From the NCBI RefSeq assembly GCF_009695585.1, contig NZ_VUNR01000003.1:62001-126000 (forward strand): 64,000 nt of DNA, read 5' to 3'. Shown one piece after another: positions 17,677-23,376 of this stretch. Position 1 is the stretch's first letter. Each line of letters begins with the position of its first letter. The DNA comes from Anaerovibrio slackiae (GTDB taxonomy: Bacteria > Bacillota > Negativicutes > Selenomonadales > Selenomonadaceae). The translations under genes and the position numbers were made by a program. A model generated the notes under the pieces. The model was not told the DNA's origin and searched no databases. It worked only from the letters and a program-made list of their open reading frames with translations.

Positions 17677-19023
17677 ATGGCGGAGGAGCGCGATATGGAT
17701 AAGGTAGGGCAGAATAATTTTTTGAAAAAGATTGCCAGGCATTTATGCAATTGGCGGACTGTTATACCGCTGGTTATTGTCCTGCTGGGGATAGGTCTGT
17801 ATTTTTTGCCTCAGACACGTCTGCACAGGGCGGCCAGCAATCAGCTTTATGCTATTTTACAAGACGGGCAGGTGCAGAATTTGCGGCAGATGGTGACGGA
17901 GGATAACAGTACCCAAAGGCGCATCATGTGGCAGTCGGCAAGCCCTATGGAAGCACCTCAGGTGATGGTGCGGCTGGCAGGTTCGGAGGAAGGGGAGCTT
18001 CGCTATGATGCGGTGCAGGATTTCTGGGCGGATGATGGCAGTGAGAATTATCAGTACACGGTATTGCTGGATAATTTGCATCCCGGTACAGAATATGAAT
18101 ACGCTATTATTGACAAGGACAGACGCAGCGATTGGCACAGGCTGAAAACGGATAGTGCGGGACAGCCTTTTAAGATGCTGATTTTCCCTGACTCCCAGTC
18201 GGCGGATTACAGCGGCTGGCAGAAGCTGGCCCAGGCGGCCTGGGAGCGCAATCAGGGGGCAGAGCTGGTGGTGAACATGGGTGACCTGGTGGACAATGGT
18301 GAGGACAGCAGTCAGTGGCGTGCCTGGTTCCGGGGGCTGGACAATATCATCAGCCAGAGTGCCTTTGTGCCTGTGATGGGCAATCACGAGTGCTATGACA
18401 AGAACTGGCAGATGCGCCTGCCAGCTGCCTATCTGGGGTATTTTCAGACACCTGCCAATGGCAGCAGCAAGTATGACAGGTATTATTATTCCTTTGACTA
18501 TGGTGCGGTGCATTTTGTGGTGCTTTGCACTTCGGATTATGAGCTGGAGGCTTTCCAGCAGGATTTGCTGGCGGAGCAGCTGGCATGGCTCAGGCAGGAT
18601 CTGAGCAGTTCTGATAAGCCGTGGAAGGTGGTACTGATGCACAGGGATGTGCTGCAGTACAGGATTCATAACAGGCCTGAACGGCTGGAGGGCTTTTCGG
18701 AGGAAGGTGTTGCCTTTATGCCTGTCTTTGAGGAGTTTAATGTGGATGTTGTGCTGACAGCCCATCTGCATACCTATAGAAACAGGGGGCACCTTTTCCA
18801 GCGTGACAGCGCAGATAAAGGGCCGGTGTACATTTTGACAGGTGTTGCCGGTGATGTGCGCTATCCGAATCTTTGGATTGACCATGCACTGGACAGAGTA
18901 ACTGCGCCACAGCCGGAAAATGGCAATTACCTGACTATGGAGGCGGCTGCTGATACGCTGGATATTCGGTGCTATCTGGCAGATGGAACGCAGATTGATG
19001 AAATAAAGTTCAGTTTGCCGTAG
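17677..19023 (+). CDS. Membrane-anchored purple-acid-phosphatase-like metallophosphoesterase
   Basis: The 448-residue protein has a short cytoplasmic N terminus, one membrane helix (VIPLVIVLLGIGLYFL, about residues 30-46), an FN3-like PAP N-terminal domain (about 70-160) and a calcineurin-like phosphoesterase domain. Metal motifs are visible in order: FPDSQ, NMGDLVDNGED, MGNHECYD, LMHRD and TAHLHTYRN. The first motif is DSQ rather than DxH. It probably hydrolyses phosphomonoesters outside the membrane. ATG 17677 follows GGAGGG; the frame is open further upstream but overlaps the aldo/keto reductase. Its last 15 bases recur after the Rpn gene at 20528. Confidence 0.85.
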   Translation: MAEERDMDKVGQNNFLKKIARHLCNWRTVIPLVIVLLGIGLYFLPQTRLHRAASNQLYAILQDGQVQNLRQMVTEDNSTQRRIMWQSASPMEAPQVMVRLAGSEEGELRYDAVQDFWADDGSENYQYTVLLDNLHPGTEYEYAIIDKDRRSDWHRLKTDSAGQPFKMLIFPDSQSADYSGWQKLAQAAWERNQGAELVVNMGDLVDNGEDSSQWRAWFRGLDNIISQSAFVPVMGNHECYDKNWQMRLPAAYLGYFQTPANGSSKYDRYYYSFDYGAVHFVVLCTSDYELEAFQQDLLAEQLAWLRQDLSSSDKPWKVVLMHRDVLQYRIHNRPERLEGFSEEGVAFMPVFEEFNVDVVLTAHLHTYRNRGHLFQRDSADKGPVYILTGVAGDVRYPNLWIDHALDRVTAPQPENGNYLTMEAAADTLDIRCYLADGTQIDEIKFSLP

Positions 19024-19547
19024 TGCCGGTTTGTTACTTCGTGCACATACTGACTGAAATGGTTTGATAGTTCGTGGACTCTGTTCAGACATTATAAAAG
19101 GACAGGTAGCGGCAGTACCCATAGAAAACTCGCTTTCGCTCGGAGGGGTGACAAAACCCTATTTCCATGATTATTTTCGGTCTAAATCCTTGTCTGCGTT
19201 GTTGTCGTCGGTCGGCATGGAACCACCATGCCTTCTTCCTCCGCCTAGCATACAAGGATTTATCCTCGAAACTAATTCATGTCAATAGGGTTTCGTCATC
19301 CCCTGCGCCTCGCGCTTCTAAGCTCCTGCATCGCTTACGCTCGCACTCGCTAAGAAGCGAGGCTGCACTCAAGGTTTTCTTTGGGTACATGCCGCACCTG
19401 TCCCTCTTTGTGTCTGAACAGATATGCACATAGTTATCAACTATACTCTGCTGTACGCTACCAAGGTAATCAATCTGACTTTACGAAAAAGCTGAAAAGG
19501 GGGAGCTGGGAGGCTGACGAAACTTGCTATTGCCGACCGCTGTATAA
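19009..19547 (+). repeat. Long direct repeat, copy A (left of the Rpn gene)
   Basis: Copy A begins with the last 15 bases of the phosphoesterase gene (TTCAGTTTGCCGTAG) and runs to 19547, just before the Rpn promoter. It matches 20528-20913 almost base for base in two blocks, 19009-19432 and 19475-19547, with a divergent stretch between. Copy A contains an extra 166 bases (19142-19307) that copy B lacks. Block one folds on itself: CTGTTCAGAC at 19081 pairs with GTCTGAACAG near 19421, and GGACAGG and GTACCC have partners too. It is non-coding. Confidence 0.85.
19145..19303. repeat. Nested hairpin (MITE-like) inside copy A
   Basis: This 159-base segment is one long imperfect palindrome. GGGGTGACAAAACCCTAT at the left pairs with ATAGGGTTTCGTCATCCCC at the right, AAATCCTTGT with ACAAGGATTT further in, and the tip is a perfect GGCATGG-AACCA-CCATGCC hairpin. 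Copy B has only 9 unrelated bases at this position, so it behaves like an inserted non-autonomous element. No target-site duplication is clear. Confidence 0.7.
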
Positions 19548-19583: not shown

Positions 19584-19622
19584 AACAATAGGGATTGATA
19601 TTATATATAGGTGGTGAGCATA

Positions 19623-20525
19623 ATGGGAGAGAAAGATATATCCCAGAAAAATTTTGAGTCTCATAATGATGTAGTGGCAGATATAGTAAATGGCAGCCTA
19701 TTTGAGGGAGAGGAATTTATCAAGGCGGATAGCCTGATAGATGCACAGCCCTTCTCGCAATACAAGGCAGATGATGGTGTGCTGCATGAGCAGGAGCGGG
19801 ATGTTGCCAAGTATTGCGTGGATGCCAATTGCAACGTCCGTCTTGCCATGGTGGGCTTTGAAAATCAGATGGCAATTGACTCTGATATGCCATTGCACGT
19901 TATGGGCTATGACGGTGATTCATATCGTGATGAAATGAATCAGGACACTATAGTGGTAGATGAAGCTACCGGCAAGAAGCGCAGGGTACGCCACAAGCGT
20001 TATCCTGTAATCACCCTGGTTTTATATTTTGGTGAAAAGCCTTGGAAAAAGCCAAGGTGCCTGTATGATGTGATTGATGTACCTGACAAACTGAAGCCAT
20101 TTGTCAATGATTTTAAGCTGAATATTATTGATGTGCCGCGGCTGACTCCTGAGCAGGTAAAACGTTACAAAGGAGATTTTCAGATAATTGCAGATTATTT
20201 CGTTCAGCGTACCAGTGGCAAGGAATATGTTCCGCCAAATAAACCTATTCAGCATGTAGACAGCATGTTAAAGCTTATGTCCGTGCTTACACGGGATAAG
20301 CGTTATTACGACTTCCTAAATGAAGATTCAGCTGCAAAGGAGGGAATAAATATGTGCGAGGTACTAGATAGAATAGTAGCACAAGGGGAAGCACGCGGTG
20401 AAATTATTGGAACTCAAAGAACATTAGTGAGCCTGGTAAAAAAGAATTTGCTATCCCTACGCGATGCGGCAGCAGAAGCAGGTATGAGCGAGGAAGCTTT
20501 TAAAAAAATGGCTGGTGCTATGTAA
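19623..20525 (+). CDS. Rpn-family recombination-promoting nuclease/putative transposase
   Basis: The 300-residue protein matches the Rpn (YhgA-like, PD-(D/E)XK) family. An N-terminal nuclease domain contains NDVVADIVNGSLFEGEEFI, REx-like ERDVAKYC and the E80-N-Q82 catalytic core in VGFENQ, followed by MPLHVMGYDGDSY and YPVITLVLYFG. A helical C terminus follows from about 243. Rpn proteins are DNA endonucleases linked to RecA-independent recombination and, in E. coli, to phage defence. ATG 19623 is used, 8 bases from AGGTGG. Long direct repeats flank the gene. A second in-frame start with a strong ribosome-binding site lies at 20352. Confidence 0.85.
   Translation: MGEKDISQKNFESHNDVVADIVNGSLFEGEEFIKADSLIDAQPFSQYKADDGVLHEQERDVAKYCVDANCNVRLAMVGFENQMAIDSDMPLHVMGYDGDSYRDEMNQDTIVVDEATGKKRRVRHKRYPVITLVLYFGEKPWKKPRCLYDVIDVPDKLKPFVNDFKLNIIDVPRLTPEQVKRYKGDFQIIADYFVQRTSGKEYVPPNKPIQHVDSMLKLMSVLTRDKRYYDFLNEDSAAKEGINMCEVLDRIVAQGEARGEIIGTQRTLVSLVKKNLLSLRDAAAEAGMSEEAFKKMAGAM
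20352..20525 (+). CDS. Internal in-frame ORF: candidate RpnS-like intragenic antitoxin
   Basis: Inside the Rpn gene AAAGGAGGG (20336-20344) sits 8 bases before an in-frame ATG at 20352, the best Shine-Dalgarno in this neighbourhood. Initiation there would give the last 57 residues (MCEVLDRIVAQGEARGEI...), a helical GxxxG-rich C-terminal domain. In E. coli, short RpnS proteins made from internal starts of rpn genes bind and inhibit the full-length nuclease. The same logic is inferred here. The SD also encodes K-E-G, so it could be fortuitous. Confidence 0.55.
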   Translation: MCEVLDRIVAQGEARGEIIGTQRTLVSLVKKNLLSLRDAAAEAGMSEEAFKKMAGAM

Positions 20526-20527
20526 AT

Positions 20528-20913
20528 TTCAGTTTGCCGTAGTGCCGGTTTGTTACTTCATGCACATACTGACTGAAATGGTTTGATAGTTCGTGGACTC
20601 TGTTCAGACATTATAAAAGGACAGGTAGCGGCAGTACCCATAGAAAACTCGCTCTCGCTCTTAGCACAGCCTCGCGCTTCTAAGCTCCTGCATCGCTTAC
20701 GCTCGCACTCGCTAAGAAGCGAGGCTGCACTCAAGGTTTTCTTTGGGTACATGCCGCACCTGTCCTTCTTTGTGTCTGAACAGATATGCACATAATAATC
20801 CAACTGCATTCAATTAGTATGCAACTGTAGCAACTAATTCTGACTTTACGAGCAAGCCTGAAAAGGGGGAGCCGGGAAGCTGACGAAATCTGCTATTGCC
20901 AACCGCTGTATAA
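20528..20913 (+). repeat. Long direct repeat, copy B (right of the Rpn gene)
   Basis: Starting 2 bases after the Rpn stop, it repeats the last five codons of the upstream phosphoesterase gene (TTCAGTTTGCCGTAG) and then the whole of copy A minus the nested 166-base element. Within it, 20600-20783 forms a hairpin with arms CTGTTCAGAC.../...GTCTGAACAG and an inner CCTCGCGCTTCT/AGAAGCGAGG stem. The right block (20840-20913) doubles as the left arm of the next hairpin. Confidence 0.85.
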
Positions 20914-21581: not shown

Positions 21582-21654
21582 TTTCTTTGATGACAACAAG
21601 TTTTAGTGTATTAAGGGATTGAATGTTATAGATTTTTCTGGGGGAGATTGTTTC

Positions 21655-23376
21655 ATGGCAATGGTAGTAAAGAATAATATGCCTGCCAGGCAGACATTGA
21701 ATAAACTGAATAAAAACAGCAAGGCACTGTCCAAAAGCTTGAAAAAGGTTGCTTCGGGGATGAAGCTGAACAGTGCTGCTGATGATGCTTCCGGTTTTTC
21801 CATATCTGAAAAAATGCGGGTGCAGATCAGGGCACTGGACCAGGCAAATGCCAATGCTCAGAATGCAGGCAGCTTGCTGCAGACGGCAGAGGGGGCAGCA
21901 TCCTCGACAGTGGATATATTGAAAACGTTAAAAGAAAAAGCGATTAACGCTGCCAATGATACCAACACAGACATTGACAGGGCAACCATCCAGAAGGAAA
22001 TGGACCAGGCTATCGACCAGATTTCAGATAATGCCAATGTCACCTTTAACGGCATAAGAATTTTTGATGGCGGGGCAGATATCAGCAAATCTGTGCAGGA
22101 TACCATCATCAAGGCATTGAATTCCGAATGGCTCAAGGCAAGCTTTGAAATGATACAGGATGCCTATGGCATTAACTTCACCGATGGCAGGGCAAGTGTC
22201 AATGAAATGGAAGTAGTGTTGAAGGATGAGGGAGATAATAACCGTTTGGCGTATGTAACTCACAGAGCTGTTGGCGGTGTGACGGATAAGCTTACTTTGA
22301 CTGTTAACATGCATTATTATGATGATATGGATGAGAGTGATCCTAACGGTTCATCACCATCGACTGGCAGTCAGTATCTTGACCGGGTTATTGCCCATGA
22401 GCTGACCCATGCTGTGATGGCGGCTAATGTCAAAGATATGGATAATGTGCCTTTATTCATTGTAGAAGGCTTTGCAGAGGTTACCCACGGCATAGATGAT
22501 AACAGAAGGTCAACGCTGGAAAGTTTACCAGATTTGTCAACGGGCATGTCCGGCGAGGGTGCTTATGCCGGTGGTTATGCTTTCTTGCGCTATATGAACA
22601 AGCAATGTGGCACTGGCAGTGTACAGTCCTTTATGCAGGGATTGGTGCAGTATGAGGGAGATGCTGATAAGGCGGTGCAGTCCGCTACCGGCGGCAGGTT
22701 TAGTACACTGCAGAATATGATAGATTCCTTCAATGGAGCAAAGTCAGCAGCAGGTGATACAAAGGCGTTTCTGCTGAATTCCTGCGGCATAGATCTGGAC
22801 AACCCTGATGTGGGTTCCATTCTCGGCGCGGATGCCAATCAGGGGGAAGTACGCGATGATAAGGGGTCTGTACTGGAAGGCCTGAATACCAAATTCTGGT
22901 ATTATCCTAGTGCTAACTCAACCCTGATAAACGGCCTGACCGTCAAGTGGCCCGATTTCCAGAAGGGGGAAGGCATGAAATTCCAGGTTGGCACCAGGGC
23001 CAATCAGGTAATTAATTCTGCCTTTGGCAGTATCAGTGCCGAAGGGCTGGGACTCAAGGCAGACAATGGCACAAATCTCAGCGTAGGCACCCGTGTCAAG
23101 GCCAAGCAGGCAATGACCATTCTTGACAATGCCATTGAAAAGGTGCTTGACCAGCAGACCAACATCGGTGCCATTGAAAGCAGGCTGAAATATACCCAGG
23201 CAAACCTGACTACTGCCAGCGAAAATACCGTCAGCGCGGAGTCTGTCATCCGTGATGCGGATATGGCAAAGGAAATGACAGAATACACCAAGAACAATGT
23301 GTTGCTGCAGGCGGCACAGTCGATGCTGGCTCAGGCAAACCAGAACAGCTCCGGGGTTCTAAGCCTGTTGCAGTAA
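21655..23376 (+). CDS. Flagellinolysin: flagellin with inserted zinc metallopeptidase
   Basis: The 573-residue protein has flagellin D0/D1 ends nearly identical in plan to FliC at 49651. Residues 1 to about 145 (KNNMPARQTLNKLNKNS, ADDASGFSISEKMR) and about 440-573 (IESRLKYTQANLTTASEN, DADMAKEMTEYTKNNVLLQ) are the filament-forming parts. The variable middle is replaced by a gluzincin-like protease with H248-E-L-T-H252 and downstream glutamates E271 and E275 as candidate third zinc ligand. Such proteolytic flagellins assemble into enzymatically active filaments in other bacteria. ATG 21655 follows GGGGGAG. The gene lies 28 kb from fliC, alone, between long hairpins and a decarboxylase gene. Confidence 0.92.
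   Translation: MAMVVKNNMPARQTLNKLNKNSKALSKSLKKVASGMKLNSAADDASGFSISEKMRVQIRALDQANANAQNAGSLLQTAEGAASSTVDILKTLKEKAINAANDTNTDIDRATIQKEMDQAIDQISDNANVTFNGIRIFDGGADISKSVQDTIIKALNSEWLKASFEMIQDAYGINFTDGRASVNEMEVVLKDEGDNNRLAYVTHRAVGGVTDKLTLTVNMHYYDDMDESDPNGSSPSTGSQYLDRVIAHELTHAVMAANVKDMDNVPLFIVEGFAEVTHGIDDNRRSTLESLPDLSTGMSGEGAYAGGYAFLRYMNKQCGTGSVQSFMQGLVQYEGDADKAVQSATGGRFSTLQNMIDSFNGAKSAAGDTKAFLLNSCGIDLDNPDVGSILGADANQGEVRDDKGSVLEGLNTKFWYYPSANSTLINGLTVKWPDFQKGEGMKFQVGTRANQVINSAFGSISAEGLGLKADNGTNLSVGTRVKAKQAMTILDNAIEKVLDQQTNIGAIESRLKYTQANLTTASENTVSAESVIRDADMAKEMTEYTKNNVLLQAAQSMLAQANQNSSGVLSLLQ

Follow-up and report, generated by a model that had tools for sequence, protein, structure and literature searches.

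The window analyzed here, a 64,000-nt stretch of an Anaerovibrio slackiae contig, carries on its forward strand an intact rpn open reading frame (19623–20525), predicted to encode RpnL, an Rpn/YhgA-like nuclease of 300 aa, for which a GTG at 19611 on the same strand, preceded by a weak Shine-Dalgarno (SD) sequence, offers an alternative start. Within this gene lies a second potential initiation site, composed of an internal SD, AAAGGAGGG (20336–20344, forward strand), which pairs with the anti-SD at -12.3 kcal/mol, and an ATG at 20352–20354. A previous sequence-only reading of this DNA had pointed to this ATG as an in-frame internal start giving a 57-residue C-terminal product, and it is indeed in frame with the 300 codons of RpnL and separated by 57 codons from their common stop, TAA (20523–20525). 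The SD-to-ATG distance of 8 nt given in that reading is correct when counted from the end of the GGAGG core, whereas the end of the whole 9-mer is 7 nt away from the ATG. The predicted product, the putative intragenic antitoxin RpnS (20352–20525, forward strand), contains the sequence GEARG (20385–20399), a single copy of a four-residue (12-nt) repeat region, followed on the same strand by an exchangeable C-terminal tail with an HTH-like fold (20400–20522), typed as T1 or T3 in our two groupings. No Rfam family was found in the rpn region. Since AAGGAGG followed after 5 to 9 nt by ATG occurs twice in the 64-kb window, against 1.34 occurrences expected by chance, the site alone proves nothing; what is decisive for the significance of the internal start is its comparison with relatives, rather than the isolated pattern.

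The body of the gene has the hallmarks of a nuclease. The window protein matches Pfam PF04754 (YhgA-like) with 24.6 bits, over a cut-off of 21. Residues R59-D60, E80, and Y96-D97 are invariant, Q82 is nearly so, and the catalytic motif of the predicted nuclease is intact. In the model of full-length RpnL (mean pLDDT 86.9), the top structural matches of residues 1–208 are PD-(D/E)XK nucleases, that is, EndoMS/NucS, Card1, McrC, NucC, and SduA, with a best Z of 6.2, and a long α-helix (244–273) begins with the internal Met. A Foldseek search with the RpnL model gave no match at E ≤ 0.001.

As for the tail, a profile of the S form searched against the PDB matches 7TH0 (7th0_A, RpnA-S) with E = 3e-5. 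The model of the S product displays one long first helix and two short ones (mean pLDDT 73.8), and the crystallized E. coli RpnA-S likewise consists of three helices, the first of which is long. A phmmer search of the PDB with the window 57-mer alone yielded chance matches only and missed 7TH0, Pfam and NCBIfam gave nothing above cut-off for this 57-mer, and the matches listed in a fold search with the S model included HTH domains and not 7TH0. One candidate, a "CAP repeat" match to 8VD6 (E = 1e-22), was rejected, as it stems from a generic HTH-like stretch that is present five times in near-identical form, at ~17 bits per copy. The resemblance of residues 255–300 to HTH domains (DeoR, TrpR, and Fis), together with the HHpred relation to HTH reported in PMC10327210, might indicate that RpnS is made but has a main role other than that of antitoxin, such as an HTH-like DNA-binding autoregulator or an L2S2 structural subunit targeting the nuclease. 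We find such a role improbable, as the Z near 5 is weak for a small helical domain, and RpnS of E. coli blocks both the toxicity of RpnL and its cleavage of DNA (PMC10327210).

Codon usage in close relatives bears directly on the internal site. The codon that precedes the conserved Glu specifies K, R, E, T, M, Q, or L in 17 relatives, yet its third base is always G, while the Glu itself is GAG in 17 of 17 genes, in which GAG accounts for only 16–71% of Glu codons. A codon alignment of 15 relatives over the whole gene, in which mean synonymous identity is 0.53, contains a single column that combines an invariant third base with an amino acid identity below 0.5, and this column supplies the first G of GGAGG. 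Moreover, just 1 of the 20 Glu columns in this alignment is always GAG, namely that of the internal SD. GGAGG is thus fixed where amino acids vary, which bears out the earlier suggestion that the SD is conserved at the nucleotide level, for which synonymous sites in relatives had been named beforehand as the check. A third base that stays fixed while the residue varies is at odds with a constraint acting on the protein only, in which a K/E/G-rich linker followed by a helix-starting Met would spell GGAGG-ATG by coincidence, even though these residues do favor an SD (the mean for shuffled codons is already -7.6 kcal/mol) and Met does begin the predicted RpnL helix.

The same pattern extends across families and phyla. 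Among 78 non-redundant, full-length rpn genes of Selenomonadaceae, 91% have a strong SD (anti-SD pairing at least as stable as -8 kcal/mol) at the aligned internal start, whereas only 2.4% of the 617 other in-frame ATGs in these genes do. When synonymous codons were shuffled gene by gene, the pooled Stouffer z was -9.0, which, like all pooled SD statistics in this study, combines genes that are related to one another and thus not fully independent. Single genes reached p ≤ 0.05 in just 10 of 78 cases, because the K, E, and G residues already favor an SD, and the argument therefore depends on pooling. A second set of 63 genes, which covers Lachnospiraceae and other Clostridia, Treponema, Riflebacteria, and additional groups, gives figures of 95% at the internal start versus 3% at other ATGs, with a pooled z of -10.1, and the start falls exactly at the aligned Met in all but one. 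Depending on the gene, the SD falls in any of the three reading frames and encodes different residues (for example, KEG, EGG, RRP, and KGE), the motif reading as GGx, RRP, or KGE in the other frames. Val takes the place of Met at the start position in nine cases and is then invariably encoded by GTG, a codon that serves for only 51 of the 176 other Val residues of the genes concerned. The internal start site also shows less folding than the remainder of the gene. The codon data largely refute a protein-level-only constraint, which we regard as very unlikely.

The location of the SD at the boundary between nuclease and tail could also suggest a conserved ribosome pause site that aids folding without giving a separate product. 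However, pausing would need neither a start codon at a fixed spacing, nor the restriction to GTG in place of ATG, nor low structure; S units occur as separate open reading frames with their own SD; and RpnS is made from rpn genes of both E. coli and Clostridioides difficile (PMC10327210). We therefore consider a pause site extremely unlikely. The third-base, frame, GTG, and low-structure features instead fit translation initiation. Met-Cys after the SD, which the first reading believed to be common in clostridial Rpn proteins, proves to be the rule in clostridial relatives. The idea that the S start always surpasses the L start in SD strength is not supported, since this holds for only 41 of 82 and is not general, and the ribosome-binding site by itself consequently gives no reason to predict an excess of S. 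Altogether, this provides independent evidence, drawn from sequence only, that selection maintains the intragenic antitoxin start of Rpn proteins in several phyla, beyond E. coli. An SD with ATG or GTG at the tail boundary could also be used as a practical signature for annotating missed RpnS proteins.

Zhong et al. (2023, PMC10327210) demonstrated the RpnL/RpnS design in E. coli and by expression of a single C. difficile gene. The conserved start, the tail homology, the repeats, and the stand-alone copies place the window gene in this known family, and we consider it highly likely that it is a gene-within-a-gene toxin-antitoxin unit, whose internal start very probably makes a 57-residue predicted antitoxin from the gene's own tail. 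The site, its conservation, the tail homology, and the nuclease motif are observed, while initiation, antitoxin action, and phage defense would apply by analogy with E. coli. As in E. coli RpnA-E and RpnP2 and in the C. difficile protein (PMC10327210), there is a PD-(D/E)XK Rpn nuclease, an in-frame internal SD and ATG, a small three-helix tail, variable four-residue repeats 8–20 residues after the start, and stand-alone S copies near sister genes. In contrast to those systems, the host belongs to the Negativicutes, the similarity to Pfam YhgA is weak (24.6 bits), the unit is known from its sequence alone, and tails are seen exchanged between nuclease cores in its family. The proposal that the same toxin/intragenic-antitoxin design exists in Negativicutes thus gains support from the conservation of GGAGG across families, phyla, and frames, and, given the E. 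coli and C. difficile precedent, this extension is expected rather than new.

By analogy, the whole open reading frame would yield RpnL, a PD-(D/E)XK-type DNA nuclease with a helical C-terminal tail, while ribosomes would also initiate at ATG 20352 via AAAGGAGGG to produce RpnS, the tail alone. The long first helix of RpnS would pair with the identical tail of RpnL, keeping the nuclease inactive, and when this pairing is disturbed, by high pH in E. coli and presumably by phage infection, RpnL would cut DNA. PADLOC has no model matching the window gene, which says little on anti-phage activity. No phage records encoding the S protein were found, and plasmid matches to the full protein are weak, with 25–27% identity.

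The region following the internal start is variable. A four-residue repeat of variable number is typical of the Rpn family (PMC10327210), and there is one GEAR unit in the window gene, three in its nearest orthologue (L015), and zero to six in relatives. L015 is 95% identical over the 450 nt upstream and 100% identical in the initial 39 nt of S, and it differs by two extra 12-nt GEAR units. The source genome, of 3.0 Mb, shows a great expansion of Rpn genes, with 19 PF12784 matches and five full-length YhgA-like genes, and contains four further close full-length copies of the window gene along with several isolated tails. On contigs C40 and C66, S genes that stand by themselves and carry an SD of their own adjoin sister genes, and in several isolated S frames the internal start codon is the most upstream one; no stand-alone S copy lies beside the window gene.

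We distinguished 15 tail types, which require at least 23 changes on the tree of the nuclease part, versus a minimum of 14. Different tails occur on similar cores, as in L103/L104 (86% identical cores) and L019/L034 (91%), and the junction lies downstream of the internal start, either inside the repeat region or beyond it. The window tail type is common to several Rpn proteins of the PF12784 family (TIGR01784, PD-(D/E)XK nuclease family transposase), in which the corresponding start is likewise preceded by an SD, but their nuclease core is separate and does not align at this level with that of the window gene, which matches PF04754 and not PF12784. C-terminal tails are thus exchanged among nuclease cores, of which we found no description in the part of the literature that was searched. 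This tentatively suggests, although we rate it somewhat short of probable, that Rpn genes are cassettes in which HTH-like tails, joined via GEAR-type repeats, are swapped among cores, even between PF04754 and PF12784, with the internal SD and start as the fixed hinge enabling the swap. With one tail serving as the control domain of the toxin and also making up the entire antitoxin, a single recombination would change toxin and antitoxin specificity together and leave them matched, which suggests how a toxin-antitoxin system could diversify without losing its match.

The rpn gene is surrounded by copies of a dispersed MITE-like repeat of ~385 bp (19004–19547 and 20523–20913), with termini ATTTCAGTTT and AAACTGAAAT, which the genome contains in about 37 near-full copies. 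The TAA of rpn directly abuts the right-hand copy. The left copy is interrupted by ~165 bp (19142–19306), possibly a nested element, with its own imperfect 26-nt terminal inverted repeat (19145–19170 and 19277–19302). A paralogue of the window gene (G000:C23:21697-22494) is likewise flanked on both sides by the MITE-like repeat. Farther downstream, the window encodes a flagellin (21619–23376) of the flagellinolysin type, a known class of proteins (PMC5595980), whose internal, metalloprotease-like insert carries the HExxH motif as HELTH.
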